64,000 nt of DNA from Gandjariella thermophila (GTDB taxonomy: Bacteria > Actinomycetota > Actinomycetes > Mycobacteriales > Pseudonocardiaceae), in the NCBI RefSeq assembly GCF_005405885.1, contig NZ_BJFL01000028.1, positions 1 to 64,000 on the forward strand, written 5' to 3'. The notes under the pieces are model-generated. The model saw nothing but the letters and a program-made list of their open reading frames with translations, did not search any database and was not told the DNA's origin. Each line of letters opens with the position of its first letter. The first letter of the stretch is position 1. A program made the position numbers and the translations under genes. Shown here piece by piece: positions 36,362 to 59,463 of this stretch.

Positions 36362-37000
36362 GTGGGCAGCCGGCGGTTCGCCCGTGTGCTGGCGGTGGCG
36401 GTGCTGGCGTCGCAGGTCGCGGTGCAGGTGGCCGCGCTGACGCCACGCTGGGACGTCGGCCACTCCCTCCCGCTGCACCTGTCCGACCTGGCCGGCCTCG
36501 CCGCCGGGTACGCGCTGTGGTCCGGCCGCCGGTGGGCGTGCCACCTGGCCTACTACTGGGGCCTGACGCTGGCCCCGCAGGCGGTGGTTACCCCGGTGCT
36601 GCTGGCGCCGGCCTCGCCGCACTGGGCATGGCTGCTCGACTGGACGTGGCACCTGCTGGTCGTCGCGGCGGCCGGATACCTGGTGTGCGGGTTGCGGATG
36701 CGCCCGGGCTGGGATGGTTACCGCCTGACCGTGACGGTCACCGCCGGCTGGGCGGCCGCCGTGCTCGCGGTCAACCGGCTTGCCGGCACCAACTACGGCT
36801 ACCTCGACGGCAAGCCGAACCGGCCCACCCTGCTCGACCTGCTCGGCCCGTGGCCGGAGTACCTGCTGGCCGAGGCCGTCCTGCTGCTCGCCGCGTGGGC
36901 CCTGCTGACCTGGCCGTGGGTGCGCTCCGCGCGCCGCGCGGAAGCTGGCTCGGCCGGTCAGCCGGGACGTACGCTCGGCGCCGAACGTCGACCCCGGTGA
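36362..37000 (+). CDS. TIGR02206 (YwaF-like) integral membrane protein
   Basis: 212 residues from a GTG, with six membrane segments. LPLHLSDLAGLAAGYALWSG near residue 40, the central LLVVAAAGYLVCGLRM, and GTNYGYLDGKPNRPTLLDLL followed by GPWPEYLL are the conserved features of the YwaF family. Function is unknown. It lies 28 bases before an MFS gene and may be cotranscribed with it. Confidence 0.8.
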   Translation: MGSRRFARVLAVAVLASQVAVQVAALTPRWDVGHSLPLHLSDLAGLAAGYALWSGRRWACHLAYYWGLTLAPQAVVTPVLLAPASPHWAWLLDWTWHLLVVAAAGYLVCGLRMRPGWDGYRLTVTVTAGWAAAVLAVNRLAGTNYGYLDGKPNRPTLLDLLGPWPEYLLAEAVLLLAAWALLTWPWVRSARRAEAGSAGQPGRTLGAERRPR

Positions 37001-40069: not shown

Positions 40070-40193
40070 GACCGCCTCCAGAAGTGGTGCGAAACGACGG
40101 GTATCACCTTCGCCGGGGCGCGGCGGCGGCCACATCACCCGTTCACGGGATCCTCCGTCGGGCCGGGCCTCCCGCGCCGGCTCCGCTGTGATC

Positions 40194-40209
40194 TCACGCG
40201 ACTACGTGA
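40194..40209. promoter_or_regulatory. TCACG-N6-CGTGA palindrome upstream of the exporter (copy 1)
   Basis: TCACG-CGACTA-CGTGA, followed by TGT, lies 93 bases upstream of the exporter ATG. A near-identical site (14 of 16 positions, plus the trailing TGT) lies at 46509 before the flavin monooxygenase gene. Two such copies in one cluster suggest a shared operator; no TetR- or MarR-type regulator gene is present within the cluster. Confidence 0.55.
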
Positions 40210-40302
40210 TGTGGCGGGCGGCCGGCGGCGGGCAGGGTGAGGTCCCGTGGTTCCCGTGGTGATGACGCGCGCCGCGCGCGGACGTGAGGTGGGGAGTTTC
40301 CG

Positions 40303-42050: not shown

Positions 42051-42096
42051 CCTACCCTGACGAGTAGTACCCCCTCCCCTCGAACGCGGGTACGTT
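42051..42096 (+). promoter_or_regulatory. 18-bp inverted-repeat box plus -10 element before DAHP synthase (site i)
   Basis: CCTACC-CTGACG-AGTAGT (42051-42068) is followed after exactly 22 bases by TACGTT (42091-42096), a good -10 hexamer. The same arrangement occurs at 51876 and, with a weaker -10, at 49053. A box centred about 33 bases upstream of the -10 element is suited to an activator. This is the weakest copy of the left arm. The DAHP synthase GTG is 150 bases downstream of the -10. Confidence 0.5.
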
Positions 42097-42246
42097 TGTC
42101 GGCGAAAGGCCGGAAAGCGGCCGGAAACCGGATCCCGGGAGCAGGACCGGGAAGCCAGGTCGGAACGCGAGGTTCGGAAAGCGCCGAGACCTGCCAGCTC
42201 GATGATCCGTGTAATGCGCGACAAATAAACTCGAGGGGAATTTGGC

Positions 42247-43470
42247 GTGGCCGGAGAAGCGACGCAGGACTTAGCCGCACGATCGCTCACCGCCCTGTCC
42301 GATTCGGAAATGCGGCGGTGGCTGTCGTTGCCGGCGGACCAGCAGCCGGACTGGGGCGACGAGTGGCTGGTCGAGAAGATCAGGGTCGACCTGGCGGACA
42401 TGCCTCCGCTGGTCAGGCAGTCCGAGGTGGACGCGCTCGGCCGGCTGCTGGCCAGGGTGGCGGCCGGCGAGTTGCACGTGATCCAGGCCGGCGACTGTGC
42501 CGAGGACCCGGCCGAGTGCGTACCGGAGTCGCTCAGCGCGAAGATCGGCATGCTCGACTCGCTCGCCGGCGTGATGAGGATCAACTCCGGCAAGCCGGTG
42601 CTGCGCGTCGGCCGCATCGCCGGGCAGTTCGCCAAGCCTCGGTCCAAGCCGACCGAGCGGCACGGATCCGTGGAGCTGCCGGCGTTCCGTGGCCTGCTGG
42701 TGAACGGGCCGGAGCCGGACCCGGTGAGCCGCCGGCCCGACCCGCTGCGGATGCTGGCCTGCTACCAGGCCGCGGCCGCGGCGATGGACTTCCTGCGCGG
42801 CCAGAGCGTCGACCCGGACCTGCCGCAGTCGCCCATGGTGTGGACCAGCCACGAGGCGCTGGTGCTCGACTACGAGCTGCCCCTGGTGCGGCGGCTGCCG
42901 GACGGCGGGATGCTGCTCACCTCCACGCACTGGCCGTGGATCGGCGAGCGGACGCGCGACCCCGGCGGCGCGCACGTCGACCTGCTCGCCTCGGTGAGCA
43001 ACCCGGTGGCCTGCAAGGTGGGCCCGCAGATCCGCACGGCGGACCTGCTCCGGCTGTGCCGGCGGCTCGACCCGGACCGGCGGCCGGGCCGGCTGACCCT
43101 GATCGCCCGGCTCGGCCCGGTCGCCGGCGAGCGGCTGCCCGGGCTGGTCGCCGCGGTCCGGGCGGAGGGCCATCCGGTGATCTGGATGTGCGATCCCATG
43201 CACGGCAACACCGTCGCCGGTCCCGACGGCCGCAAGACCCGGGTGCTCGCCGCGGTGCTGCGGGAGGTCGCCGACTTCCAGCGGGCCGTGTCGGCCGCCG
43301 GTGGGGTCGCCGGTGGCCTGCACCTCGAGTCCACGCCCATGGACGTCTGCGAGTGCGTGCCGGACGACTCGCAGATCGGTCTGGTCGGCGACGGCCGCTA
43401 CACCACCCTGTGCGACCCGCGCCTGAACCCGGAGCAGGCCTGGGCGGTCGCCGCCGCGTGGTGCCGGTGA
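42247..43470 (+). CDS. Class II (plant/PhzC-type) DAHP synthase
   Basis: 407 residues. It has class II blocks HVIQAGDCAEDP with the metal-site Cys, PVLRVGRIAGQFAKPRSKP, WTSHEALVLDYE, GERTRDPGGAHVDLLASVSN, IWMCDPMHGNT and GGLHLESTPMDVCECV. It joins phosphoenolpyruvate and erythrose 4-phosphate to start the shikimate pathway. Cluster copies such as PhzC raise chorismate supply. It is shorter than housekeeping class II enzymes with N-terminal regulatory extensions, so it may be less feedback-sensitive. The GTG at 42247 has GAGGGGAA upstream. It should feed the PhzE-like enzyme at 49174. Confidence 0.92.
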   Translation: MAGEATQDLAARSLTALSDSEMRRWLSLPADQQPDWGDEWLVEKIRVDLADMPPLVRQSEVDALGRLLARVAAGELHVIQAGDCAEDPAECVPESLSAKIGMLDSLAGVMRINSGKPVLRVGRIAGQFAKPRSKPTERHGSVELPAFRGLLVNGPEPDPVSRRPDPLRMLACYQAAAAAMDFLRGQSVDPDLPQSPMVWTSHEALVLDYELPLVRRLPDGGMLLTSTHWPWIGERTRDPGGAHVDLLASVSNPVACKVGPQIRTADLLRLCRRLDPDRRPGRLTLIARLGPVAGERLPGLVAAVRAEGHPVIWMCDPMHGNTVAGPDGRKTRVLAAVLREVADFQRAVSAAGGVAGGLHLESTPMDVCECVPDDSQIGLVGDGRYTTLCDPRLNPEQAWAVAAAWCR

Positions 43471-43505
43471 TCGGCGGGTAGCCGCGGCGCGCAGGATCCG
43501 GGCGC

Positions 43506-43523
43506 GTGTGATCCCAGTCACAC
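43506..43523. promoter_or_regulatory. CRP/GlxR-type site upstream of the LuxR regulator
   Basis: GTGTGA-TCCCAG-TCACAC is a perfect six-base inverted repeat with a six-base spacer and includes the exact TGTGA-N6-TCACA consensus bound by CRP-family regulators, including actinobacterial GlxR/Crp. It lies 157 bases upstream of the regulator start, suggesting that global carbon or cAMP control feeds into the cluster. Confidence 0.55.
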
Positions 43524-43679
43524 CCGATTGGTGGTCCCGCGTGCCGGAGCCGGCAGTAGTGTGCCGGCCCGCGAGGGTTGCGTGGCGCGGGGACTCGTGC
43601 CGTCGCGTGTCTCCGGCGTGGTAACCGGCCGGGGACGGAGTCGGTCCGAGCGTGGTGGGTGCGATCGAGGGGGGCGCGC

Positions 43680-46496
43680 GTGCCGGTGACCACTGGCCCG
43701 CTGGTCGGGCGGGACCGGGTGCTGGCCAGGGTGCGGCACGCGGTCTCCGCGCTCGGCGAGGGCACCGGCGGCTGCGTGGTCGTCGAGGGACCGGCGGGCA
43801 TCGGCAAGAGCAGGCTGCTCACCGCCGGCACCGATGCGGCGCACGCCGCCGGCATCGCCGTCGCCACGGCTCGGCCCACCGAACTGGACCGGATCATCCC
43901 GGCGGGCGCGTTGCTGTCCGCGCTGCGCTCCGCGGAACCGCCGGTGGTGGACGAGGCGACCACCGCCGCGCTGACCGAGCGGGGCAGTAACCGGTTCTGG
44001 TTGCTGAACTGGCTCGGTGAGCGGATCGAGGAGTTCGCCATGCGGCGGCCGCTGCTGGTCGCGCTGGACGACGCGCACTGGTCCGACGAGCTGACCGCGC
44101 TGGCCCTGCGGACCCTGGTGCCCGAGCTGGCCAGCGCACCGGTGCTGTGGCTGGTCGCCCGCCGGACGCCGCAGCCGAGGTCGCCCTCGCGGGAGGCGAT
44201 CGACTGGCTGCTCGCCGAGGACACGGTGGGCGCGGTCCGGCTGCGCCTCGGCGAGCTGTCCGCGGACGAGGTGGCCAAGTTCTGCGCGCTGGTGCTCGGC
44301 GCGGTCCCCGACGACACGGTGCTCGACCTGGCGCAGCGCAGCGGCGGCAACCCGTTCCTGCTCGAGCAGTTGCTCACCACCCTGCTCGGGGAGGGCCGGG
44401 TGCTGGTCGAGGACTACACCGCGACCATCGTGGAGAGCGGCCTGCCGGTCAGCTTCCTGGGCGCGGTGGAGCACCGGTTGCGGGACCTCACCCCCACCGG
44501 CCGGCGACTGCTCGACGTGGCCTCGGTGATCGGCCGGAAGTTCACCCTGCACGAGGCCGCCGGGCTGGCCGGGGTGCCCGCGGTGCAGATGCTTTCGGCG
44601 GTCGACGAGGCCGTCCGGTTAGGACTGCTCGTCGACTCCGGCTCCGAGTTCTCCTTCGGGCACGACCTGATCCGCGAGGCGGTGTACCAGTCGCTGTCCG
44701 GGCCGGTGCGCTACGCGCTGCACCGGGAGGCGGCCACCGTGCTCCGGCAGGAGGGCCGCGGCGCCGCAGAGGTCGCCGAGCACGTGGTCCGCAGCGCGCG
44801 CCGGGGTGACCAGCGCGCCGTCGCGGTGTTACGCGAGGCGGCCGAGGAGATCGCGCCGAAGGCCCCGGGCACCGCGGCCGACCTGCTGCTGCGCGCGCTG
44901 GAACTGCTGGCCGACGACGACCCCGGCCGCGAGCGGGTGCTCGCCGACGTGGTCCGGCTGCTGGTGTCGGTGGGCCGGCTGGTCCAGGCGCGGGAACTGG
45001 CCGGCGACGCGCTGCGCCGCGGGCTCGCCCCGGAGAACGAGGCCGCGATCCTGCTGGGCCTGGCCGAGGCGCTGAAGCACTCCGGCAAGGACTCCGAGGC
45101 CGTCCGGGTCACCACCCGCGCCTTGGACCGGCCGGACGTGCCGCAGGCGGCGCGCGCCCACCTGCTGGCCATCCGCGCGCACGCGCTGCTCTACGTCAAC
45201 GACGTGGCCGCCGCGGACGAGGCCGGCACGGTGGCCGCCCAGGTCGGCGCCGCCACCGGGGAGGACGCCGCGGTGGTGTTCGGCACGGTGGCCCGGACCG
45301 TGGTGGCGATGTACCGGGGCCGGCTGGAGGAGGCGATCCGCCTCGGCCGCGACGCCGTGCAGATCGCGGACCGGACCGGCGGCGCCGCCAAGCAGCGTTA
45401 CCCCTCGCTGTGGCTGGGCCGGGCACTGGTCACCGCCGACCGGTTCACGGAGGCGGACGCGATGTTCGAGATCGGCCAGCGGGAGGCCGAGCGGACCGGC
45501 ACCGCGTGGTCCCAGCCGCTGTGGCACTTCTACCGGGCGGAGCTGCGGCTGGCCGCCGGCCGGCTGGACGACGCCCAGGCCGAGGCCGAGGCGGGACTGG
45601 CGGTCACCGAGCGGCTGTCCGCGGAGGCGTTGAGCGTGCCGCTGCTCGGCATGCTCGCCGAACTGGCTCGCCGCCGGGACCAGTTGCCCACCGCCACCGC
45701 GCTGCTCGAGCGCGCCCGTGGGCGGCTGGCCGCCGGGATCGGCGCGATGCCCGAGGACATCGACTGGACCAGCGCGCTGGTCCGCGAGGCATGCGGGGAC
45801 CCCGCCGCCGCCCTGGACGTGCTGGCCGGCACGTACGAGTCCTTTCCGGACCGGTTGCTGCTGCTGGCCAGAGACCCCTGGGCCGGGCCGGAACTGGTGC
45901 GGATCGCGCTGGCCGGCGACGCCAGGGACTGGGCCAGGGCCACCGCCGAGGCGCTGGCCAGGCTGGCCGACATGAACCCGGGGGTGTCCTCGATCGCCGG
46001 TGCCGCCGCGCACGCCGAGGGCCTGCTCAACCGGGACCCGAACACGCTGCGCCGCGCGGTGCGGATCTACCGGGACAGTCCCCGGCCACTCGCCCGCGCC
46101 TCGGCGATGGAGGACGCCGGGCGGCTGGCGCGGGCGGTGGGCCGGCGCAGCGACGCGGTGGACCTGCTCAACGAGGCGCTGGAGACCTACGCCCGGTGCG
46201 GCGCGCTGCGGGACCAGGCCAGGGCGCTGCGGGAACTCCGGTCGCTGGGCGTCCGCCGGCGTGCCCTCGCGCCGTCGCGGGCCGCCAAGGTCGGCTGGGA
46301 GAGCCTCACCGAGGCGGAGCTGAAGGTGGTCCGACTGGTGTCCCAGGGCCTGACCAACCGGGCCACGGCGAACCGGCTGTTCCTGTCCCCGCACACGGTG
46401 GACACGCACCTGCGGCACGCGTTCGCCAAACTCGGCGTGTCCAGCCGGGTGGAACTCGCCCGCCGGGTCTTGGAGCGGGAGGGCGCGGCCGGCTGA
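43680..46496 (+). CDS. LAL-type LuxR-family transcriptional activator (ATPase-LuxR)
   Basis: 938 residues from a GTG behind GAGGGGGG. The N-terminal AAA module shows Walker A GPAGIGKSRLL near residue 40 and Walker B LLVALDDAHWSDE. A long TPR-like helical middle (about 380-850) follows, then a C-terminal LuxR helix-turn-helix (LTEAELKVVRLVSQGLTNRA, then LFLSPHTVDTHLRHAFAKLG). Large ATP-binding LuxR regulators are typical pathway-specific activators of actinomycete clusters. It is a candidate to bind the 18-bp boxes found before three cluster transcripts; this link is inferred. Confidence 0.92.
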   Translation: MPVTTGPLVGRDRVLARVRHAVSALGEGTGGCVVVEGPAGIGKSRLLTAGTDAAHAAGIAVATARPTELDRIIPAGALLSALRSAEPPVVDEATTAALTERGSNRFWLLNWLGERIEEFAMRRPLLVALDDAHWSDELTALALRTLVPELASAPVLWLVARRTPQPRSPSREAIDWLLAEDTVGAVRLRLGELSADEVAKFCALVLGAVPDDTVLDLAQRSGGNPFLLEQLLTTLLGEGRVLVEDYTATIVESGLPVSFLGAVEHRLRDLTPTGRRLLDVASVIGRKFTLHEAAGLAGVPAVQMLSAVDEAVRLGLLVDSGSEFSFGHDLIREAVYQSLSGPVRYALHREAATVLRQEGRGAAEVAEHVVRSARRGDQRAVAVLREAAEEIAPKAPGTAADLLLRALELLADDDPGRERVLADVVRLLVSVGRLVQARELAGDALRRGLAPENEAAILLGLAEALKHSGKDSEAVRVTTRALDRPDVPQAARAHLLAIRAHALLYVNDVAAADEAGTVAAQVGAATGEDAAVVFGTVARTVVAMYRGRLEEAIRLGRDAVQIADRTGGAAKQRYPSLWLGRALVTADRFTEADAMFEIGQREAERTGTAWSQPLWHFYRAELRLAAGRLDDAQAEAEAGLAVTERLSAEALSVPLLGMLAELARRRDQLPTATALLERARGRLAAGIGAMPEDIDWTSALVREACGDPAAALDVLAGTYESFPDRLLLLARDPWAGPELVRIALAGDARDWARATAEALARLADMNPGVSSIAGAAAHAEGLLNRDPNTLRRAVRIYRDSPRPLARASAMEDAGRLARAVGRRSDAVDLLNEALETYARCGALRDQARALRELRSLGVRRRALAPSRAAKVGWESLTEAELKVVRLVSQGLTNRATANRLFLSPHTVDTHLRHAFAKLGVSSRVELARRVLEREGAAG

Positions 46497-46508
46497 CCGG
46501 CGCTGGGA

Positions 46509-46524
46509 TCACGAGACCACGTGA
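46509..46524. promoter_or_regulatory. TCACG-N6-CGTGA palindrome upstream of the monooxygenase (copy 2)
   Basis: TCACG-AGACCA-CGTGA, followed by TGT, lies between the LuxR stop and the monooxygenase start and 36 bases upstream of the latter. It matches the copy at 40194. Because it overlaps the earlier in-frame GTG/ATG at 46521-46526, it supports the ATG at 46560 as the true start. Confidence 0.55.
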
Positions 46525-46559
46525 TGTCCCGGTCCCCTGCCGCCGGGCAGGCTCGACGC

Positions 46560-48191
46560 ATGACCGAGCGGGAAGTGTCGCCGGCCGACGCGGCGCCGGT
46601 GCTGGTGGTCGGCGCCGGCCCGGTGGGTGCGACGGTCGCGCTGGAGTTGGCCCACCACGGCGTGCGCAGCATCGTCGTGGACCGGGCGCGCGGCGCCTCG
46701 CGCCATCCCAAGATGGACTTCGTCAACGCGCGCAGCATGGAACTGCTGCGCCGGCTCGGGTTGACCGACGACATCCGGGCCCGCGGGGTGCCCGGCGACC
46801 AGGCGTTCAACTTCTTCTGGATGCGCAGCTTCGCGGAGCCACCGGTGGCCGAGTGGCGCTACCTGTCAGTGGACACGCTGCGCGAGGAGATGGCGCGGAC
46901 CAACGACGGCAGCCTGCCGCGCGAGCCGTACCAGCGGATCGTCGGCTCGATGCTGGAGCAACTCGGCCGGGACCGGTGCGCGGCCGCCGAACTGGTGGAC
47001 CTGCGCGAGGGGTGGACGTTCCAGGGCCTGCGCCAGGACGCCGAAGGCGTGACCGCGGACGTGCTGGTGGACGGGCGTACCCGAACCATCCGGGCGCGGT
47101 ACCTGGTCGGCTGCGACGGCGCGAACAGCGCGGTGCGCTCGGCGGTGGGGATCGGGGTCGACGAGTACGGTCCGCAGCGCCACCACGTGATCAGCTACTT
47201 CCGCAGCGCGGACCCGGCGCTGACCCGGTACGGCCGGTTCTTCCTGGCCAACACGACGCTCGGGCTCACCCTGGTGTCCCGGGACGGCGACGCCACCTGG
47301 ACCGCGACCTTCCCGCTGGCCGACGGCGAGCAGTCCACCGGTGACCCGCTGCCGGTGATCCGGCAGCGGCTGGGCGTCGACATCGCGGTCGACGAACTGA
47401 TCAACGTGGCGCAGTGGCGCGGCCGGTTCGGCGTCGCCCGCCGCTACCGGGCCGGCCGGGTGTTCCTCGCCGGCGACTCCGCGCACCAGTTCTTCCCCAC
47501 CGGCGGGCACGGCGCCAACACCGGCATCGCCGACGCGGTCGACATCGGCTGGAAGCTCGCGGCGGTGCTGGACGGCTGGGGCGGACCCGGGCTGCTGGAC
47601 AGTTACGAGGCGGAACGCCGGCCGGTGGCGCTGTTCAACCGGGAGATGTCGTTCAACCTGCTCGAGGTGTGGCGCCGGTTCCCGCAACTGGCCGCGGAGG
47701 GCGCCGGCCGGCCACAGCTCGCCGGGTTCCTGCGGCAGGACGGCTACCAGATCAACAACATCGGCATCCACTGCGGCTACCGGTACCGGGACTCCCCCGT
47801 CATCTGCCACGAGGACGGCGAGGAACCCGCGTGGGAGTGGGGCCGCATCGTGCCGACGACCTGGCCCGGCGGGCGGGCGCCGAGTGTGCGGCTGGCCGAC
47901 CGCACCGAACTGTACGACCTGCTCGGGCCGGGGCTCACCCTGCTGGACTTCTCCGGCTCCCAGGCCGGGAAGCCGATCGCGCAGGAGGCGCAGCGGCTCG
48001 GCGTGCCGCTCGCCCACCTGGCGGTCGACGACGAGGGCAGCCGCACCGTGTGGGAGCGCGACCTGGTGCTGGTGCGACCGGACCAGCACGTGGCCTGGCG
48101 CGGAAACGAGCCGCCCGACGACTGCGCGGGGGTCCTCGACCGCGTGTGCGGCCGGCACCCGGACCGTTCCGTGTCACCACGTCCTCGCTGA
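46560..48191 (+). CDS. FAD-dependent aromatic monooxygenase (PheA/TfdB family)
   Basis: 543 residues from the ATG at 46560. FAD motifs are VLVVGAGPVGATVALELAHH (from residue 14), the DG motif VGCDGANSAVRSAVG and the GD motif VFLAGDSAHQFFPTGGHGAN. The C-terminal 150 residues form the thioredoxin-like domain of the phenol hydroxylase/TfdB branch. It inserts oxygen into an aromatic ring using NAD(P)H. In the cluster it may hydroxylate an aminophenol intermediate. It is 26 bases upstream of the nitroreductase gene and likely cotranscribed. The substrate is unproved. Confidence 0.87.
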   Translation: MTEREVSPADAAPVLVVGAGPVGATVALELAHHGVRSIVVDRARGASRHPKMDFVNARSMELLRRLGLTDDIRARGVPGDQAFNFFWMRSFAEPPVAEWRYLSVDTLREEMARTNDGSLPREPYQRIVGSMLEQLGRDRCAAAELVDLREGWTFQGLRQDAEGVTADVLVDGRTRTIRARYLVGCDGANSAVRSAVGIGVDEYGPQRHHVISYFRSADPALTRYGRFFLANTTLGLTLVSRDGDATWTATFPLADGEQSTGDPLPVIRQRLGVDIAVDELINVAQWRGRFGVARRYRAGRVFLAGDSAHQFFPTGGHGANTGIADAVDIGWKLAAVLDGWGGPGLLDSYEAERRPVALFNREMSFNLLEVWRRFPQLAAEGAGRPQLAGFLRQDGYQINNIGIHCGYRYRDSPVICHEDGEEPAWEWGRIVPTTWPGGRAPSVRLADRTELYDLLGPGLTLLDFSGSQAGKPIAQEAQRLGVPLAHLAVDDEGSRTVWERDLVLVRPDQHVAWRGNEPPDDCAGVLDRVCGRHPDRSVSPRPR

Positions 48192-48217
48192 AGAAAAGAA
48201 ACAGGGAGAAAAGGGTA

Positions 48218-48820
48218 ATGACGACCGAACACGTCGTACTGGACAAGCACGCGCAGGACCTGCTGTTCCGGGAGGCGCGCACGGCCAACACGTTCACCGA
48301 CGAGCCGGTGAGCGACGAGCAGATCGAGGCCATCTACGACCTGGTGAAGTGGGCCCCGACCTCGTTCAACCAGCAGCCGCTGCGCGTTGTGCTGGTGCGC
48401 TCGCCCGAGGCCAGGGCCCGGCTGGTGCCGCTGATGTGGGACAACAACCAGGAGAAGACGAAGAACGCCCCGCTGGTGGCGATCCTCGCCGCCGACACCG
48501 AGTTCCACCAGCACCTGCCCACCCAGTTCCCGGTGTTCCCGCAGGCCAAGGACGTGTTCTTCAGCGATGACGCGGTGCGGGAGGAGTCAGCCAGGTTCAA
48601 CGCCGCGCTCCAGGTCGGGTACTTCATCCTCGGCATCCGCGCGATCGGCCTGGCCGCCGGTCCGATGACCGGCTTCGACTTCGACGGGGTGAACAAGGAG
48701 TTCTTCGCGGAGGGCACGCACCGCGCGCTCGCCGTGGTCAACATCGGTAAGCCGGGCCCCGGGGCCTGGTACGACCGGCTGCCCCGGCTGGCCTACGACC
48801 AGGTTTTCCGCACCGTCTGA
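48218..48820 (+). CDS. Nitroreductase family protein (RutE/malonic semialdehyde reductase-like)
   Basis: 200 residues. FMN-binding blocks include REARTANTFTDEPVSDEQI, LVKWAPTSFNQQPLRVVLV and QVGYFILGIRAIGLAAGPMT followed by GFDFDGVNKEFF, the signature of the RutE/HadB-type subgroup. It reduces quinones, nitro compounds or aldehydes with NAD(P)H. AGGGAGAAAAGGG precedes the ATG. Paired with the upstream monooxygenase, it might reduce a quinone or act on an aminoquinone intermediate; this is inferred. A 42-bp repeat and a hairpin follow. Confidence 0.88.
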   Translation: MTTEHVVLDKHAQDLLFREARTANTFTDEPVSDEQIEAIYDLVKWAPTSFNQQPLRVVLVRSPEARARLVPLMWDNNQEKTKNAPLVAILAADTEFHQHLPTQFPVFPQAKDVFFSDDAVREESARFNAALQVGYFILGIRAIGLAAGPMTGFDFDGVNKEFFAEGTHRALAVVNIGKPGPGAWYDRLPRLAYDQVFRTV

Positions 48821-48838
48821 CGGCCGGTTCTCCGAAAC

Positions 48839-48880
48839 GTGACCGGCCTGCGATGACCCGCGGCGGAACGCGCCGGGGCG
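48839..48880. repeat. 42-bp dispersed repeat, copy 2
   Basis: Second copy of the element at 41794-41835 (36 of 42 identical). It begins 18 bases after the nitroreductase stop. As with copy 1, a GTTCCGGA stretch, a long hairpin and then an 18-bp regulatory box follow within about 200 bases, so the whole intergenic arrangement appears duplicated. Confidence 0.7.
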
Positions 48881-48949
48881 TGTTCCGGACAGCCGCTGAT
48901 TCGGCCGGTTCCGACCGGGGGCGAATCACGCCGGGTGAAGCGGCGCCTC

Positions 48950-48986
48950 CATGGGCGCCCCGACCGCTTCGGTCGGGGCGCCCATG
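48950..48986 (+). terminator. Perfect 17-bp hairpin terminator
   Basis: CATGGGCGCCCCGACCG (48950-48966) pairs without mismatch with 48970-48986 around a CTT loop. It lies 130 bases beyond the nitroreductase stop and before the phzE-like promoter box, so it closes the monooxygenase-nitroreductase transcript. Confidence 0.75.
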
Positions 48987-49052
48987 CCGCATTTCCCGGA
49001 AACATGCCCTTCCCGGAAGCTCCTTTTTTGAGAAACACCCGAGCGGCCGGCG

Positions 49053-49098
49053 ACCACTCAAGTAAGTAGTTGCCCGCCGATGCCGGCGATGTGAGGCT
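49053..49098 (+). promoter_or_regulatory. 18-bp inverted-repeat box before the phzE-like gene (site iii)
   Basis: ACCACT-CAAGTA-AGTAGT at 49053-49070 matches the boxes at 42051 and 51876. At the conserved distance of 22 bases lies GAGGCT (49093-49098), which keeps the A and final T of a -10 hexamer but is otherwise weak, as often seen at activator-dependent promoters. The box ends 104 bases before the start codon, against 103 at site iv. Confidence 0.5.
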
Positions 49099-49173
49099 TG
49101 AGCCGACGTCGGCCGGGTAAGGAACCGTGGTTCCGCTTTCCGTGAATCCGGTTCCCGGAGGGGGCGAGAAATC

Positions 49174-51099
49174 ATGACCCAGCACACCGGTGCCGCGCTC
49201 GAACAGATTCTCGGGGACGACCCGCCGCCGTTCGCGGTGCTGCACCGGCCCGAGTCGACCGGGGCCGGCACGCTCGAGTTACTCGTCGGCAGGGTCGCCA
49301 CCGTCGAGCGGGTCGCCGACCTGCCGGTCGCGGCCGGTCCGACGGGCGGGGGCGCGCGGCACGACCTGCTCGCCCTGCTGCCGTACCGGCAGATCCGGGA
49401 GCGCGGCTTCGCGTGCGTGGACGACGGCACGCCGCTGCTGGCGCTGGAGGTGACCGAGCAGGCTCGCATCTTGGTGCCCGAGTTCGCCGCCGCCGTGCCG
49501 GACGCGCCGGCGCGGCTGTCCGGGGAGCGGTTCGACATCACCGACGCCGAGTACGCGGACCTGGTCCGGCGGATCGTCGCGGACGAGATCGGGCAGGGCA
49601 CCGGCGCCAACTTCGTGATCAAACGGTCGTTCCTGGCCACCGTCGAGGACTTCTCGACCCAGGTGGCGCTGGCGGTGTTCCGCCGCCTGCTGCGCCACGA
49701 GTCCGGCGCCTACTGGACCTTCCTGGTGCACACCGGGTCCAGGACGCTGATCGGCGCCTCCCCGGAGCGGCACGTCAGCGTGGCCGGCGGCGTGGCCACC
49801 ATGAACCCGATCAGCGGCACGTTCCGGTACCCGCCGTCCGGTGCCTCGCCCGCTGGCCTGCTCGGCTTCCTCGGCGACCGCAAGGAGTCCGACGAGCTGT
49901 ACATGGTGCTCGATGAGGAACTGAAGATGATGGGCCGGGTCTGCGCGGGCGGCGGCCGGGTGGTGGGGCCGCGGCTGAAGCTGATGGCCGAACTCGCCCA
50001 CACCGAGTACTTCATCGAGGGCCGCGCGGCGCTGGGCGTGCGGGAAACCCTCGCCGAGACGATGTTCGCGCCGACCGTCACCGGCAGCCCGCTGGAGAGC
50101 GCCTGCCGGGTGATCGCCCGGCACGAGCGGGGCGGCCGCGGCTACTACAGCGGCGCGCTCGCGCTGATCGGCCGGGAACCGGACGGCACCCCGCTGCTCG
50201 ATTCGGCCATCGTGATCCGGACCGCGGACGTCGACGCCGGAGGCAACCTGCGGATCGACGTCGGGGCCACCCTGGTCCGCCACTCCGACCCGCACGCCGA
50301 GGCGGCGGAGACGCGCGTCAAGGCGGCCGCCATGCTCGCCGCGTTCCGCCGCACCCCCGGAGCCGAGGGCGGCACGCCGCGCCGGGCGCCCGGTGGCGAG
50401 TGTGCGGGCCACCCGGAGATCCGCGCCGCGCTCAGCCGGCGCAACCAGGGGCTCGGCACGTTCTGGCTGTCCGACCGCCGCGCCACGCCGGCCGCCGGAC
50501 CGCTCGCCGGCCGGCGTGTGCTGGTCGTGGACTGCGAGGACACCTTCACCGCGATGCTGCGTCACCAACTCGCCGCGCTCGGGCTTTCCGCCACGGTCAT
50601 CCGGTTCGACGGCGAGGTGAACCTGGCCGGACACGACCTGGTCGTGGTCGGTCCCGGCCCGGGCGACCCGCGCGACGCCGGCCATCCCAAGATCGCGGCG
50701 ATGCGCCGGATCACCGAGCAGGTGCTGCGCGCGGGCATCCCGCTGCTGTCCATCTGCCTCGGCCACCAGGTGCTGTGCTCGGTGCTCGGCCTGGACATCG
50801 TCCGCAGGCCGGTGCCGAACCAGGGCCTGCGGCGGGAGATCGACCTGTTCGGCCGGGTCCAGCCGTGCGGGTTCTACAACACGTTCGCGGCGCGCAGCGA
50901 GACCGACCGGTGGGACACCGGCACCGGTAGCGTGGCGGTGTGTCGGGACCCGGACAGCGGCGAGATCCACGCGATGCGCGGCCCGGGTTTCCACTCGATG
51001 CAGTTCCACCCGGAGTCCGTGCTCACCGAGAACGGCGTCGACATCCTCCGGGACGCGATCACCGCCCTACTACTCCCCGCGGAGGCCCTCACCGCATGA
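49174..51099 (+). CDS. phzE: PhzE-like ADIC/anthranilate synthase (fused TrpE-type and glutamine amidotransferase)
   Basis: 641 residues, the length and domain order of PhzE. The N-terminal chorismate-utilising domain (about 1-400) has IGASPERHVSV, NPISGTFRYPPSG, HTEYFIEGRAALG and GRGYYSGALALIG. The C-terminal class I amidotransferase (about 430-640) has LLSICLGHQVLCSVLG with nucleophile Cys528 and HSMQFHPESVL. PhzE converts chorismate and glutamine to 2-amino-2-deoxyisochorismate. An isochorismatase and a DhbA-like SDR in the same cluster favour ADIC over anthranilate as product. Its stop overlaps the next ATG. Confidence 0.9.
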   Translation: MTQHTGAALEQILGDDPPPFAVLHRPESTGAGTLELLVGRVATVERVADLPVAAGPTGGGARHDLLALLPYRQIRERGFACVDDGTPLLALEVTEQARILVPEFAAAVPDAPARLSGERFDITDAEYADLVRRIVADEIGQGTGANFVIKRSFLATVEDFSTQVALAVFRRLLRHESGAYWTFLVHTGSRTLIGASPERHVSVAGGVATMNPISGTFRYPPSGASPAGLLGFLGDRKESDELYMVLDEELKMMGRVCAGGGRVVGPRLKLMAELAHTEYFIEGRAALGVRETLAETMFAPTVTGSPLESACRVIARHERGGRGYYSGALALIGREPDGTPLLDSAIVIRTADVDAGGNLRIDVGATLVRHSDPHAEAAETRVKAAAMLAAFRRTPGAEGGTPRRAPGGECAGHPEIRAALSRRNQGLGTFWLSDRRATPAAGPLAGRRVLVVDCEDTFTAMLRHQLAALGLSATVIRFDGEVNLAGHDLVVVGPGPGDPRDAGHPKIAAMRRITEQVLRAGIPLLSICLGHQVLCSVLGLDIVRRPVPNQGLRREIDLFGRVQPCGFYNTFAARSETDRWDTGTGSVAVCRDPDSGEIHAMRGPGFHSMQFHPESVLTENGVDILRDAITALLLPAEALTA

Positions 51100-51788
51100 C
51101 CGAAGAACTGCGGAACCCGGCGTCGGACACGGTGACCGTGTGGTCGGACATCGGCTGCCCGTGGGCCACGCTCGCGCTGCACACGCTGCGGGCCAGGGCG
51201 GCGGAACGCGGCCGGCGGCTCCTGGTGGACCACCGTGCCTTCCCGCTGGAGCTGTTCAACAACGCGCCGACCCCGAAGCTCATCCTGGATGCCGAGATCG
51301 TGACGATCGCCGGGGCGCGCCCCGAGGTGGGCTGGCGGCTGTGGTCCGCGCCCGAGTCCACCTACCCGGTGACCACGCTGCCGGCGATGGAGGCCGTGCA
51401 GGCGGCCAAGGATCCGGATATCGGCGGCCTGCCGGGCAGCGACGAGCTGGACGCGGCGCTGCGCGCGGCGTTCTACGCGGAGGGGCGCTGCATCAGCATC
51501 CACCCGGTGATCCTGGAGATCGCCGAGGGCTGCGCGCACGTCGACCACGCGGCGCTCGCGCGGGCGCTCGCCGCCGGCCGTGGCCGGGCCGAGGTCTACC
51601 GGCAGTGGGAGACCGCGAAGGGGCCGGCGGTGCAGGGCAGCCCGCACCTGTTCACCGCGCACGGCTACGCCGCGCACAATCCGGGTGCCACCTATCACTG
51701 GACGGGCCGATTCCCGACCGGACTGCCGCGCCTCGACGAATACGATCCCGCCTGGGCGGACACCGTCCTCGACCAGTTAACGGAGTAG
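51096..51788 (+). CDS. DsbA-family thioredoxin-fold protein
   Basis: 230 residues. VTVWSDIGCPWATLALHTLR carries the active-site region as Cys-Pro-Trp-Ala, so the second catalytic cysteine of a dithiol oxidase is absent. The C-terminal AVQGSPHLFTAHG supplies the cis-Pro region of the DsbA/FrnE family. No signal peptide, so it is cytoplasmic. Its ATG overlaps the PhzE-like stop (ATGA). Single-cysteine members can act as isomerases or glutathione/mycothiol-dependent enzymes. Its role in the cluster is unknown. Confidence 0.82.
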   Translation: MTEELRNPASDTVTVWSDIGCPWATLALHTLRARAAERGRRLLVDHRAFPLELFNNAPTPKLILDAEIVTIAGARPEVGWRLWSAPESTYPVTTLPAMEAVQAAKDPDIGGLPGSDELDAALRAAFYAEGRCISIHPVILEIAEGCAHVDHAALARALAAGRGRAEVYRQWETAKGPAVQGSPHLFTAHGYAAHNPGATYHWTGRFPTGLPRLDEYDPAWADTVLDQLTE

Positions 51789-51875
51789 CCGAGAGAATTA
51801 TCCCCACCGGCCGGTCGGGCGCCGCGAATGTTTCCGCGGTGCCCGGCCGGCCGTTGTTTTTCGCGGATTCCGGCC

Positions 51876-51921
51876 ACTACTCGAGCAGGTAGTGGGCCGC
51901 GTACGGAATTCCGGTTAGTGT
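51876..51921 (+). promoter_or_regulatory. 18-bp inverted-repeat box plus -10 element before the aspartokinase operon (site iv)
   Basis: ACTACT-CGAGCA-GGTAGT (51876-51893), extended by CC and GG on the flanks, is the best copy of the cluster box. TAGTGT (51916-51921) follows after exactly 22 bases as the -10 element. No -35 hexamer is present, as expected if an activator takes its place. It would drive the long operon from aspartokinase to isochorismatase. Confidence 0.58.
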
Positions 51922-51995: not shown

Positions 51996-53240
51996 ATGGA
52001 TATCTTGGTGCGGAAATACGGAGGGACGTCCCTCGCGGGCGCCGACCGGTTACGGCGCGCCGCCACGTCCGTCGCCCGGGCCAGCCGGACCTGGCCCACC
52101 GTGGTGGTGGTCTCCGCGCGCGGCGACAGCACCGACCAGTTGCTGGCCATGGCCGCCGCCGCCGGCGAGCGGTCGGCGAGCCGGGAGACCGATCAGTTGC
52201 TGGCCACCGGCGAGTGCCTGTCCGCGGCGCTGTTCGCGATGACGCTGCGGTCGCTGGGCGTGCCCGCGGTGTCACTGACCGGCGGCCAGGCCGGCATCCG
52301 CGTGGTCGGCCCGCCCGGGGCCGGGCGGATCGCCGCGATCGACCCGGCCCGGATTCACCGGCACCTCGGCGAGGGCAGCGTGGTGGTGGTCGCCGGGTTC
52401 CAGGGCGTCGGCGCGGGCGGCGACGTGGTCACCCTCGGCCGCGGCGGTTCGGACACCACCGCGGTCGCGCTGGCCGCCGAACTCGGCGTCCGGCGCTGCG
52501 AGATCTACACCGACGTGGCCGGGGTCTTCGACGCCGACCCCCGCGTCGTGCCGTCCGCCCGGGTGCTCGACACGGTGCCCATGGACGTGATGGTGGAGAT
52601 GGCCTTCGCCGGCGCCAGGGTGCTGCACAGCCGCTCGGTGGAGCTGGCCGCCGCGCGCGGCATCGACCTGCTCGTGCGCTCCGCGCTGGCCGACGGCGCG
52701 GGAACCGTGATCCCAGGAGGAAGGCAGCCCGAGATGTTGGAGTCGCACGCCCTCGTCGCCATCGCGCACGACCTGGACGTCACCCGGGTGCTGGTCCGTG
52801 CCGACACCGCGCACCGGGACCTCGCCGTCGACGTGCTGTCGCTGTTCGCCCGGCACCACGCCCCCGTCGACCTGGTGGCCCGGTCCGGCCGGTACGAGGC
52901 CGAGTTCCGGATGGGTTTCACCGCCCGGCGCAGCGACATCCCGCGGCTGGTGGACGAGCTGCGCGCGCTGGTGTCCGCTGTGGACGGCACGGTGGTGCTG
53001 GACGAGAACATCGCCAAGATCTCGCTGATCGGCACCGGCCTGCTCAACCGGCCGGAGTTCACCGCGCGGCTGCTGGCCGGGCTCGACGCGGCCGGGATCA
53101 GCACCGGCTGGATCGCCACCTCGCAGCTCCGGGTGTCGGTGACCGTGCCCCAGGAGCGCGTGACGGACGCGTTGGCGTTGCTGCACAAGGAGTTCGAGCT
53201 GGGGTCCGAGCGGCTGGTCGCCGGCGCCGGCGCACGGTGA
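51996..53240 (+). CDS. lysC: Aspartate kinase (cluster copy)
   Basis: 414 residues. The amino-acid kinase domain has VRKYGGTSLAGADRLRRAA, ETDQLLATGECLSAALFA and TLGRGGSDTTAVALAAELG. Two C-terminal ACT domains follow from about residue 260 (ISLIGTGLLNRPEFTARLL). It phosphorylates aspartate on the way to aspartate 4-semialdehyde, the C4 donor for 3-amino-4-hydroxybenzoate. Placement directly before the GriI/GriH-like pair fits precursor supply. No aspartate-semialdehyde dehydrogenase is in the window, so the housekeeping enzyme must serve. Confidence 0.9.
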   Translation: MDILVRKYGGTSLAGADRLRRAATSVARASRTWPTVVVVSARGDSTDQLLAMAAAAGERSASRETDQLLATGECLSAALFAMTLRSLGVPAVSLTGGQAGIRVVGPPGAGRIAAIDPARIHRHLGEGSVVVVAGFQGVGAGGDVVTLGRGGSDTTAVALAAELGVRRCEIYTDVAGVFDADPRVVPSARVLDTVPMDVMVEMAFAGARVLHSRSVELAAARGIDLLVRSALADGAGTVIPGGRQPEMLESHALVAIAHDLDVTRVLVRADTAHRDLAVDVLSLFARHHAPVDLVARSGRYEAEFRMGFTARRSDIPRLVDELRALVSAVDGTVVLDENIAKISLIGTGLLNRPEFTARLLAGLDAAGISTGWIATSQLRVSVTVPQERVTDALALLHKEFELGSERLVAGAGAR

Positions 53241-53317
53241 CCACCCGCCGCCGTCACCGGGCACCGCGACCAGGCGCGCGCGGACCGGCGCGGTAACCAG
53301 GCAGGAGAGGGGAAGCG

Positions 53318-54136
53318 GTGATTGTCAACGGCTCTTTCGCCCGGCAGGTCCGGCTCGGCAGGTTGTTCCGGCGCGACGGCCGGCGCCTGCTGGTCGTCCC
53401 GCTGGATCATTCCGTCACCGACGGGCCGGTCACCGGCGGCCGGCGGGTCAACCAACTCATCGGCCGGCTGTCGGACAACGGCACGGACGCCGTGGTGCTG
53501 CACAAGGGGGCGCTGCGGTACGTGGACCACCGCCACTTCGCGGCCACGTCGCTGATCGTGCACCTGAGCGCCAGCACCGCGCACGCGCCGGACCCGGACG
53601 CCAAGTACCTGGTGGCCAGCGTCGAGGAGGCGCTGCGGCTGGGCGCGGACGCGGTGAGCGTGCACGTCAACCTGGGCTCGGCGGAGGAGGCCCGGCAAGT
53701 CGCCGACCTCGGCATGGTGGCCGACGCGTGCGACCGGTGGAACGTGCCGCTGCTGGCGATGATGTACCCGCGCGGGCCGAAGATCACCAACCCGCGCGAC
53801 GCGGGCCTGATCGCGCACGCCGCGACGCTGGCCGCGGACCTGGGCGCGGACGTCGTGAAGACGCCGTGCGCGGCCACGGTGGCCGAGATGGCCGACATCA
53901 CCCGCGACTGCCCGGTGCCGATCGTCGTCGCCGGCGGGCCGCGCCGGGCCAGCACCGACGACGTGCTCGGGTACGTGCGGGACGCGCTGCGCGGCGGCGC
54001 CGCCGGCGTCGCCATGGGGCGCAACGTCTTCGCGGCGGAGGACCCGGGCACGGTGACCCGGCGGCTCGCCGAGCTCATCCACCAGATCGAACCGGTGACC
54101 CACCAGCTCGACCAGCTCGAGGTCGCGGCGGTCTGA
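53318..54136 (+). CDS. griI: GriI-like class I aldolase (ADH synthase family)
   Basis: 272 residues of the MJ0400/LsrF/GriI family. Key features are LLVVPLDHSVTDGP, AVSVHVNLGSAEEARQVADL, LLAMMYPRGPKI and the Schiff-base Lys181 in GADVVKTPCAATVAE. GriI condenses aspartate 4-semialdehyde with dihydroxyacetone phosphate to a C7 amino sugar-like acid. The GTG at 53318 follows AGGAGAGGGGAAG. It sits between aspartokinase and the DHQ synthase II-like gene, the same pairing as in grixazone-type clusters. Confidence 0.9.
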   Translation: MIVNGSFARQVRLGRLFRRDGRRLLVVPLDHSVTDGPVTGGRRVNQLIGRLSDNGTDAVVLHKGALRYVDHRHFAATSLIVHLSASTAHAPDPDAKYLVASVEEALRLGADAVSVHVNLGSAEEARQVADLGMVADACDRWNVPLLAMMYPRGPKITNPRDAGLIAHAATLAADLGADVVKTPCAATVAEMADITRDCPVPIVVAGGPRRASTDDVLGYVRDALRGGAAGVAMGRNVFAAEDPGTVTRRLAELIHQIEPVTHQLDQLEVAAV

Positions 54137-54170
54137 CCCCGACCGGTTGTCGAGGAACGAGGGAGAAGCG

Positions 54171-55274
54171 ATGAAACTCTGTTGGTTGGACGTTCGGGCC
54201 GGTGGCGCCGCCGTCGGGGCGATCATCGAGGAGGCGGTGCACCAGCGCGTCGACGGCATCGTGGCCGACGACCCGGCCGCGCTGGCCGGGCTGCCGCCCA
54301 CCGTGCGGAAGATCCTCTTTCCGCAGGGCAGGCCGTTACCGGAGGACCTCGGCGGCGCGGACATCGTGATCGTGGACCAGGCCGAGCACGGCAGCACCGC
54401 GGAGCTGGCCGCGCGCTTCCCCGGCGTGGAGTTCGGCCGGTTCGTGGAGATCGTCGACGCGGCGACGCTCGAGGTGGCCAACCAGGCCGCGCGCACCGAG
54501 AAGTGGAGCGTGCTGCTGTTCCGCGACCCGACGAAGATCCCGCTGGAGATCGTGCTGGCCGCCGCCGCCCGCGCCGAGGGCAGCGTCATCACCGTGGCCG
54601 CCGACCCGGAGGAGGCCGAGATCATCTTCGGGGTGCTGGAGCACGGCTCGGACGGTGTCATGATGGCGCCGAAGGCGGTGGGCGACGCCACCCGGCTGAA
54701 GGCGGCGGCGGAGGACGCGCCGGCCCCGCTGAACCTGGTCGAGCTGGAGATCACCGGGATCAGCCACGTCGGCATGGGCGAGCGAGCCTGCGTGGACACC
54801 TGCTCGTACTTCCGGCAGGACGAGGGCATCCTGGTCGGCTCGCACTCCAAGGGCATGATCCTCTGCGTCAGCGAGACCCACCCCCTGCCCTACATGCCCA
54901 CCCGGCCGTTCCGGGTGAACGCCGGCGCGATCATGTCGTACACGCTGTCCACCCAGGGCCGCACCAACTACCTGAGCGAGCTGACCGCCGGCAGCAAGGT
55001 GCTGGCCGTCGACGTGAAGGGCAACACCCGCGCGGTCACCGTGGGCCGGGTGAAGATCGAGTCCCGGCCGCTGCTGTCGGTGGACGCAATGGCGCCGGGC
55101 GGCACCACGGTCAACCTGATCCTGCAGGACGACTGGCACGTGCGGGTGCTCGGACCGGGCGGCGCGGTGCTCAACAGCACCGAACTGAAGCCGGGCGACG
55201 TGGTGCTCGGCTACCTGCCCACCGAGGACCGGCACGTCGGCTACCCGATCGACGAGTTCTGCCGCGAGCAGTGA
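54171..55274 (+). CDS. griH: GriH-like 3-dehydroquinate synthase II
   Basis: 367 residues. The DHQ synthase II family is marked by EKWSVLLFRDPTKIPLEIVL, GSDGVMMAPKAVGD, GERACVDTCSYFRQDEGIL and GSHSKGMILCVSETHPLPYM. In 3,4-AHBA pathways the enzyme turns the GriI product into 3-amino-4-hydroxybenzoate by oxidation, cyclisation and dehydration. GAGGGAGAAGCG precedes the ATG. With the aldolase and aspartokinase it completes a three-gene precursor module. Confidence 0.9.
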   Translation: MKLCWLDVRAGGAAVGAIIEEAVHQRVDGIVADDPAALAGLPPTVRKILFPQGRPLPEDLGGADIVIVDQAEHGSTAELAARFPGVEFGRFVEIVDAATLEVANQAARTEKWSVLLFRDPTKIPLEIVLAAAARAEGSVITVAADPEEAEIIFGVLEHGSDGVMMAPKAVGDATRLKAAAEDAPAPLNLVELEITGISHVGMGERACVDTCSYFRQDEGILVGSHSKGMILCVSETHPLPYMPTRPFRVNAGAIMSYTLSTQGRTNYLSELTAGSKVLAVDVKGNTRAVTVGRVKIESRPLLSVDAMAPGGTTVNLILQDDWHVRVLGPGGAVLNSTELKPGDVVLGYLPTEDRHVGYPIDEFCREQ

Positions 55275-55281
55275 GTCCGGC

Positions 55282-56076
55282 GTGACGCAGGTCTTCGACT
55301 TCCATGTGCGGCTGGTGCCCCGCCCCGGCGCGGCGGAGCGGCTGCTGGAGGCGCTCGAGGAGTGCGAGATCGATCGTGCCGCCGTGTCCGCCGGCGGCAC
55401 GATCGACCCCCTCACCCTGTCCCGGCAGCTCGTCGAGGGCGGGCACGTGGACAGCGAACCCGACAACGACGCGGTGCTGCGGGCGTGCGCGGACTCGGCC
55501 GGCCGGCTGGTCCCGTGCTACTTCGCCAACCCGCACCGCGGCGTGGCCGAGTACCGGGAGCGAGCCGGCGAGTTCCGCAAGCTGGAGATCTCCCCCGCGG
55601 TGCACGGGATCGCGCTCACCGACCCACGGCTGGCGGACTGGATCGCCGTGGCCGAGCGGTTCCGGCACCCGGTGTACGTGGTGTGCCTCGCCCGGCCCGG
55701 CAGCGGCGTCGCGGACCTGGTGGCGCTGGCGGGGCGCTTTCCCGGTGTCACGTTCGTCCTCGGGCACAGCGGCATCGGCAACATCGACTTCTACGGGATC
55801 GAACTGGTCGCCGCGGCGCCGAACGTCCTGGTGGAGACCTCGGGTGGGTACAGCACCGTGGCCGCCGCCGCACTGCGGCGGCTGGGCCCGGACCGGGTGC
55901 TGTTCGGCTCCGAGTACCCGCTGCAACACCCCGGCGTCGAGCTGGCCAAGTTCGCCGCGCTGGGCCTCACCGACGCGCAGTGGCGGCAGGTCGCCTGGGA
56001 CAACGCCCTGCGCGTGCTGTCCGAAGGAGGGATAGCTCATGACCGAGACCGCGATCAGGCTGCCCCGGCTGGGTGA
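55282..56076 (+). CDS. Amidohydrolase-2 family protein, candidate ring-closing enzyme
   Basis: 264 residues. The TIM-barrel amidohydrolase fold is indicated by FVLGHSGIGNIDFYGIEL (His162) and RVLFGSEYPLQHPGVELAKF (Glu211 where most members have Asp). The N-terminal metal motif DxHxH reads Asp6-Phe-His8-Val-Arg10, so one metal histidine is lost. The gene overlaps the ligase gene by 38 bases. Amidohydrolase-fold enzymes next to an adenylating ligase make benzoxazoles in nataxazole-type pathways by joining or cyclising two aminophenol acids. That role is inferred from context. Confidence 0.8.
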   Translation: MTQVFDFHVRLVPRPGAAERLLEALEECEIDRAAVSAGGTIDPLTLSRQLVEGGHVDSEPDNDAVLRACADSAGRLVPCYFANPHRGVAEYRERAGEFRKLEISPAVHGIALTDPRLADWIAVAERFRHPVYVVCLARPGSGVADLVALAGRFPGVTFVLGHSGIGNIDFYGIELVAAAPNVLVETSGGYSTVAAAALRRLGPDRVLFGSEYPLQHPGVELAKFAALGLTDAQWRQVAWDNALRVLSEGGIAHDRDRDQAAPAG

Positions 56077-57352
56077 CTGGACCAGCCCGGCCGAGCTGAC
56101 CGAACTGCAGGACGCGCAACTGGCGCGGACGCTGCGCTGGGCCGCGCGCTCACCGTTCTACCGGTCCCGGTTCGGCGCCGCGGAGCCGGCCGACCGCGCC
56201 GGCTTCACCGCGCTGCCGCTGACCACCAAGCAGGACCTGCGCGACAGCTACCCGTTCGGCATGCTCGCGGTGCCCCGCGAGCGGTTGGCCACCTACCACG
56301 AGTCCAGCGGCACCGCGGGCAGCCCCACCCCGTCCTACTACACCGAAGAGGACTGGATCGACCTGGCGGAGCGGTACGCGCGCAAGTGGGTCGGCATCTC
56401 CGCCGACGACACCTTCCTGGTCCGCACCCCCTACGCGCTGATGATCACCGGCCACCTGGCGCAGGCCGCGGCCCGCTCGCACGGCGCGACCGTGGTGCCC
56501 GGCGACAACCGGTCGCTGGCCATGCCGTACTCCCGGGTGATCCGGGTGCTGCACGACCTGGGCGTCACGCTGACCTGGTCGATGCCGACCGAGACGCTGC
56601 TGTGGGCGGCCGCCGCCCGGGCCGCCGGCTACCGTCCGGGCACCGACTTCCCGGCGCTGCGCGCGTTGTTTGTCGGTGGCGAGCCGCTGTCCGCCGCGCG
56701 CCGCCGGCGGATCAGCGAGATCTGGGGCGTTCCGGTGGTCGAGGAGTACGGCTCCACCGAGACCGGCAGCCTGGCCGGCGAGTGCCCGCACGGCCGCATG
56801 CACCTGTGGGCGGACCGCGCGATCTTCGAGGTGTACCACCCGGAGACCGGGACGCTGCGCCGCGACGGCGCCGGCCAGCTCGTGGTCACCCCGCTGTTCC
56901 GCGAGGCGATGCCGCTGCTGCGGTACAACCTCGAGGACAACGTGGAGGTGTCCTATCAGGACTGCCCGTGCGGCTGGATGCTGCCGACCGTGCGGGTGCT
57001 CGGCCGGGCCGCGTTCGGCTACCCGGTGGGCGGTGCCCGGATCACCCAGAGCCGGCTGGAGGACCTGGTCTTCGAGCTGCCGGTGGAGTACGGCGTGACG
57101 TTCTGGCGGGCCAGGGCCGAGCCGGACGTGCTGCGCATCCAGATCGAGGTTGCCGAGGCGCACCGGGCGGCGGCGTGCGCCACGCTCGCCGGGTCGGTCC
57201 GCGCCGAGTACGGCGTCCAGGCCGAGGTGGACGGTGTTCCGGAGGGGACCCTGGTGCCGCACCGGGTGCTCACCGCCGTGCACGACGTGGTCAAGCCGCG
57301 CAGCCTGTTCGGCGCGGACGAGGACTGGGACAAGTCCCTTCTCTACTACTGA
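56039..57352 (+). CDS. Phenylacetate-CoA ligase-type adenylate-forming enzyme
   Basis: 437 residues, the size of PaaK-type ligases. ATP loop YHESSGTAGSPTPSYYTEED (about residue 85), acyl-pocket strand TLTWSMPTETLLWAAAA, GEPLSAARRRRISEIWG and adenine motif VVEEYGSTETGSLAGECPHG, with a C-terminal domain. It activates an aryl carboxylate as AMP ester or CoA thioester. Natural candidates here are 3-hydroxyanthranilate or 3-amino-4-hydroxybenzoate. AAGGAGGGATAGCTC precedes the ATG inside the amidohydrolase gene, so the two are coupled. Confidence 0.88.
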   Translation: MTETAIRLPRLGDWTSPAELTELQDAQLARTLRWAARSPFYRSRFGAAEPADRAGFTALPLTTKQDLRDSYPFGMLAVPRERLATYHESSGTAGSPTPSYYTEEDWIDLAERYARKWVGISADDTFLVRTPYALMITGHLAQAAARSHGATVVPGDNRSLAMPYSRVIRVLHDLGVTLTWSMPTETLLWAAAARAAGYRPGTDFPALRALFVGGEPLSAARRRRISEIWGVPVVEEYGSTETGSLAGECPHGRMHLWADRAIFEVYHPETGTLRRDGAGQLVVTPLFREAMPLLRYNLEDNVEVSYQDCPCGWMLPTVRVLGRAAFGYPVGGARITQSRLEDLVFELPVEYGVTFWRARAEPDVLRIQIEVAEAHRAAACATLAGSVRAEYGVQAEVDGVPEGTLVPHRVLTAVHDVVKPRSLFGADEDWDKSLLYY

Positions 57353-57385
57353 TTCTGGCCCACCCGGACGAACGAGGGAGTCGCC

Positions 57386-58567: not shown

Positions 58568-58597
58568 CGGGCCGGCCACGGGGATTGGGGGATCCGA

Positions 58598-59380: not shown

Positions 59381-59463
59381 CCCCACGACCTCGACGGTGG
59401 CGCGCTCGGGCACCGAGCGCGCCACCCAACCTTTCCCGCCGGCACATCCTGGAGGAACCGACC

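Follow-up and report, generated by a model that had tools for sequence, protein, structure and literature searches.

LuxR-type class II activators bind the lux box and similar dyads near position -42. PAS-LuxR regulators such as PimM recognize operators of the form CTVGGGAWWTCCCBAG, and the RifZ site of the rifamycin cluster is reportedly CTACC-N8-GGATG. The genome of Gandjariella thermophila contains, within the 64,000-nucleotide stretch analysed here (the window), three 18-bp dyads of the form ACTACY-N6-RGTAGT, termed type-B boxes. They resemble LuxR class II sites in their predicted position near -43, the absence of a -35 element and the presence of a nearby gene for a regulator with a LuxR-type helix-turn-helix (HTH), but the half-site ACTACY is not a lux box, and the regulator is an NTPase-LuxR protein without an acyl-homoserine-lactone domain. 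Like PimM-type sites, they would be dyad operators of a LuxR-type activator in an antibiotic cluster; they differ in half-site, length and the sensor domain of the regulator. The similarity to RifZ consists of a LuxR-family pathway-specific activator in an actinomycete and a CTACC half-site, whereas the spacing and the second half-site differ.

The regulators BagY, FevT and GriT of 3,4-AHBA clusters are also LuxR proteins encoded beside GriI/GriH-type genes, but those clusters use a SARP as well, and no binding site for the three regulators was found in the available excerpts of their description (PMC6692506). The caboxamycin cluster likewise relies on a SARP. In literature searches for the motifs, outside the RifZ paper, the passages covered contained only primer sequences or unrelated sites, and the remaining titles pointed to other subjects; within this scope, nothing contradicted the remark of the sequence-only reading that it knew of no described motif with this sequence.

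Type-B boxes and their promoters

The type-B boxes, the putative -10 elements and the neighbouring genes, assigned by Pfam/NCBIfam for the three predicted targets, are as follows.

42051 to 42068, + strand: type-B box 1, CCTACC-CTGACG-AGTAGT, promoter of the class II DAHP synthase gene
42091 to 42096, + strand: putative -10 element TACGTT, 22 nt 3' of box 1
42247 to 43470, + strand: class II DAHP synthase, predicted target of box 1
48218 to 48820, + strand: nitroreductase-family protein, between the FAD monooxygenase and PhzE genes
49053 to 49070, + strand: type-B box 2, ACCACT-CAAGTA-AGTAGT, promoter of the PhzE-like ADIC/anthranilate synthase gene
49093 to 49098, + strand: putative -10 element GAGGCT, 22 nt 3' of box 2
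49174 to 51099, + strand: PhzE-like enzyme with chorismate-binding and GATase domains, predicted target of box 2
51096: DsbA-like protein, domain match just below the cut-off
51876 to 51893, + strand: type-B box 3, ACTACT-CGAGCA-GGTAGT, promoter of the aspartate kinase/3,4-AHBA/benzoxazole operon
51916 to 51921, + strand: putative -10 element TAGTGT, 22 nt 3' of box 3
51996 to 60132, + strand: presumed box 3 operon

The sequences, positions and 22-nt spacings that a sequence-only reading had given for the boxes and hexamers are exact, as are the distances of 104 and 103 nt from the ends of boxes 2 and 3 to the ATG codons at 49174 and 51996; box 1 ends 179 nt before the GTG codon at 42247. Type-B sites possess the dyad symmetry expected of a class II LuxR-type operator, and the expected phase to a predicted -10 element, with a position adjoining the -35 region, is seen at gaps of 22-23 nt, although GAGGCT of box 2 is a poor -10 element. 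The three boxes are the top-scoring sites of the window (22.3, 21.2 and 19.0 bits, with a matrix built from the same three boxes), compared with a best score of 15.5 bits among ten Markov windows. The composite of a box with at most two mismatches, N22 and NANNNT occurs three times in the window and in none of 60 Markov windows, which excludes a chance repeat as the source of the boxes.

A genome-wide scan had been predicted to give few matches outside the cluster, and this was borne out: the 6.1-Mb genome has 38 type-B-like positions at up to two mismatches and three at up to one mismatch, two of which are in the cluster and one outside it. None of the 34 sites inspected among the 35 outside the cluster is both non-coding and followed by a hexamer at 22 nt; most are coding by the GC3 test, and one labelled non-coding has a hexamer at 21 nt. 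The strict composite ACTACY-N6-RGTAGT-N22-TAnnnT is matched in this genome by box 3 only. A type-B-like site at C9:16590, which has CTACCCTGACGAGTAG in common with box 1, was rejected as coding sequence without a phased hexamer.

Gene content of the cluster

The presumed box 3 operon begins with genes for an aspartate kinase, a DhnA-type (BagB/FevI-like) aldolase, a DHQS-II (3,4-AHBA synthase-like) protein and an amidohydrolase, and continues with an AMP ligase (BagE/FevW-like), an FAD oxygenase, a DhbA-like SDR and a PhzD-like isochorismatase. This gene content apparently provides 3,4-AHBA and 3-HAA together with benzoxazole-type ligation and cyclisation (compare PMC9864271). A scan of genome contigs with the DHQS-II protein returned one locus. 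At the cluster edge, the product of 36362-37000 (+ strand) has a strong Pfam match to TMEM164 (E 1.7e-43), a family that takes its name from a membrane protein of eukaryotes.

A second box type and the large LAL regulator

A second type of dyad with identical geometry, ATCACG-N6-CGTGAT (generalized as ATCMCG-N6-CGKGAT, 18 bp, termed type A), is present in the same cluster and was overlooked in the first reading.

43680 to 46496, + strand: large LAL regulator with helix SPHTVDTHLRHAFAKLGV, proposed to bind type-A rather than type-B boxes
46508 to 46525, + strand: type-A box ATCACG-AGACCA-CGTGAT, shortly 3' of the LAL stop codon; CAGGCT follows after 22 nt
40193 to 40210, + strand: type-A box CTCACG-CGACTA-CGTGAT, 5' of an MFS exporter gene at 40303; CAGGGT follows after 22 nt
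40134 to 40151, - strand: type-A box ATCCCG-TGAACG-GGTGAT, 5' of a cupin gene; GAAGGT follows after 22 nt

The box at 46508 is the sole perfect ATCMCG-N6-CGKGAT copy in the genome, and those at 40134 and 40193 have one mismatch each. The FAD monooxygenase gene probably starts at ATG 46560 rather than GTG 46521; its mRNA may be leaderless, because the predicted transcription start falls on ATG 46560.

Clusters with the same or overlapping content encode orthologues of the large LAL at 37-52% identity, and the recognition helix of these orthologues, HTVDSHLR, is nearly unchanged from the HTVDTHLR of the window protein. No type-B box with one mismatch or fewer was found in these related clusters, and it was this absence that led to the second box type, a dyad that could be read off the sequence 5' of the relatives' aspartate kinase genes. 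Type-A scans of the regions around LAL orthologues gave up to four perfect copies each; the stretch scanned in genome G092 has imperfect copies only, and genome G137, in which the LAL belongs to a different cluster, has none. In type-A boxes pooled over the clusters, xAxxxT peaks at a gap of 22 nt (23 of 82 directions). The half-sites of the two box types differ at positions 2, 3 and 6: boxes 1 to 3 have ACTACY-like half-sites instead of the ATCMCG expected of a large-LAL operator.

The LuxR2 regulator

The other LuxR-type regulator of the cluster, LuxR2, is encoded on the opposite strand.

60165 to 61691, - strand: LuxR2, 508-aa ORF, NTPase part and C-terminal GerE HTH, proposed to bind type-B boxes

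LuxR2 has the N-terminal NTPase and C-terminal LuxR HTH of a LAL, with a GPPGTGKT motif and a GerE domain, although its AAA_16 match is partial and below the cut-off for that family, and it lacks the length of ~800-1000 aa and the TPR-like middle of LAL proteins. The NTPase part runs straight into the HTH, and the ~430 aa that lie between them in the 817-924-aa homologues are absent. Given this gap, LuxR2 may be impaired, constitutive or differently responsive. Two Streptomyces relatives (L138 and L139) show the reverse arrangement, an HTH and a middle part for which an N-terminal NTPase was not found. Among 150 genomes of the family and 198 of the class, no full-length LuxR2 orthologue was found, in line with the missing type-B boxes of the related clusters. 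Neither the region upstream of LuxR2/MT (61692-61827) nor that upstream of the LAL (43471-43679) yielded a convincing type-A or type-B box by eye or in scans.

The recognition helix of LuxR2 is of the class HTVNY[H/Y]LR (HTVNYHLR), and its codon pattern occurs once in the genome. The NCBIfam model BagY_FevT gives a weak HTH match to both window regulators, with scores far below the cut-off of this 367-position model. NarL is among the PDB matches to the HTH. Its base-contacting residues K188, V189 and K192 align with D-S/T in the class of the large LAL and with N-Y in that of LuxR2, and these aligned residues are consistent with different half-sites for the two regulators.

Association of recognition helices with box types

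Two Streptomyces plasmid clusters that also possess PhzE, PhzD and DAHPS genes were found by protein search with LuxR2. In both, a divergent promoter region contains a type-B box with one mismatch, and the regulator has the helix HTVNYHLR. No type-B box at up to two mismatches was found in four plasmid clusters that combine a PhzE gene with other regulators. A codon-level search of 297 genomes of the same family, with the helix as sole criterion, identified nine more genomes, eight of which have a type-B box near the regulator. Two further regions around HTVNY[H/Y]LR regulators also contain the box: that of Embleya has the perfect copy ACTACT-CGATCG-AGTAGT and a second box, and that of S. anthocyanicus has a type-B box 5' of a malic enzyme/DAHPS/PhzD/PhzE operon. 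No box is present in four control regions whose regulators have other helices. In genome G001, no good box was found near an HTVNYHLR regulator with an HTH 79% identical.

In eight related genomes (L154-L170; G166, G433, G390 and relatives), the box lies by an SDR-like gene near the gene for an HTVNYHLR LuxR protein. The surroundings of this SDR-like gene in L154-L170 are apparently housekeeping genes (rpe, riboflavin synthase and fmt, as judged by eye).

The reciprocal, motif-first search matched 17 of the 297 genomes, compared with two control matches. Among the independent matches examined, those in G446, G402 and G011 belong to PhzE/DAHPS clusters, and those in G446 and G411 adjoin an HTVN[Y/F]HLR regulator; G402 has a type-B box and the target genes, but no regulator of the HTVNYHLR class within ~15 kb. 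Thus, as expected of a class II operator, a LuxR/GerE regulator is encoded nearby and co-occurs with the box across genomes, with G001 and G402 as exceptions. In the pooled type-B boxes of the helix-defined regions, TAnnnT follows at a gap of 22 nt in 11 of 32 directions and 23 nt in four of 32; over the range of 10 to 44 nt, all other gaps together account for a single occurrence (binomial P ~1e-24, with kinship ignored and the window's own boxes included). Counted by hand as lineages, five of six with the helix have the box, as opposed to none of 12 regions without it (Fisher P 7e-4), which is the fairer number because orthology links several genomes of the family; since the eight family matches are orthologous, the independent lineages number only ~5. 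Across genomes, each box type goes with one recognition-helix class.

Which regulator acts at the type-B boxes

The proposal of one phased activator at three promoters is well supported, as the layout of box, 22-nt gap and TAnnnT recurs in unrelated genomes. The further suggestion that this activator is the large LuxR protein at 43680 was not upheld, because the type-B box tracks regulators with HTVNY[H/Y]LR helices, such as LuxR2. For the large LAL to bind the type-B boxes and activate all three transcripts is unlikely: it is encoded within the cluster, directly 3' of the DAHP synthase gene, and in related clusters the boxes that accompany its orthologue precede the aspartate kinase gene, but those boxes are ATCACG-N6-CGTGAT and not ACTACY-N6-RGTAGT. 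The helix of the LAL is nearly unchanged from that of its orthologues, type-A boxes are retained in the window, and the type-B box accompanies a different regulator class in other genomes.

Joint control, in which both regulators read both box types through overlapping specificity or as heterodimers, is rather improbable. The shared 6-N6-6 geometry and 22-nt phase, and the nature of both regulators as NTPase-LuxR proteins of one cluster, would accommodate it; the differing half-site positions and the finding of each helix class elsewhere with a single box type argue against it. Repressor operators, too, are typically dyads of this size. That the boxes belong to a repressor or to a regulator of another family (TetR, MarR), or are a chance repeat, is nonetheless extremely improbable: in several lineages TAnnnT lies at a constant 22-23 nt with no -35 element, and boxes were recovered by searching for a LuxR helix, both of which fit an activator, and the Markov windows contain no composites.

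It is quite probable, judging from these sequence comparisons, that the type-B boxes serve as operators for LuxR2, a class II LuxR-type activator, and that the large LAL acts on the type-A set. A dimer of the HTVNYHLR-class regulator would bind the 18-bp dyad and assist RNA polymerase in place of the missing -35 element; with the phased hexamers as -10 elements, the dyad centre would lie ~43 bp 5' of the transcription start. Activation at box 1 would raise DAHP synthase and bring carbon into chorismate; at box 2, PhzE would convert chorismate to ADIC; and at box 3, the aspartate kinase operon would supply the enzymes for 3,4-AHBA, ligation, the amidohydrolase and 3-HAA. The large LAL may run a parallel set (exporter, cupin and FAD monooxygenase) through type-A boxes at the same phase. 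Some cross-binding is conceivable, since in relatives the box of the other LAL precedes the aspartate kinase operon. Binding, activation, start sites and dimerisation are all predicted from sequence. In the lineage of G. thermophila, type-A boxes appear to be ancestral and to have given way to type B, since the same genes are preceded by type A in relatives.

Implications

For LuxR regulators of a class with targets that are difficult to predict, the type-B box offers an operator that can be tested, and the comparison of two regulators within one cluster links helix sequence to half-site. The motif also finds 3-HAA/DHHA-type clusters in genomes, and the right identity of the activator matters for switching on an apparently benzoxazole-type cluster with 3,4-AHBA and 3-HAA genes. 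An evenly balanced possibility is that LuxR proteins of the HTVN[Y/F][H/Y]LR subfamily, with the operator ACTACY-N6-RGTAGT at about -43, form a portable module that controls chorismate diversion (ADIC/3-hydroxyanthranilate) throughout actinobacteria; in G. thermophila this module would have displaced the boxes of an older LAL at three promoters, and the cluster would thereby have come to use two operator codes with the same geometry.
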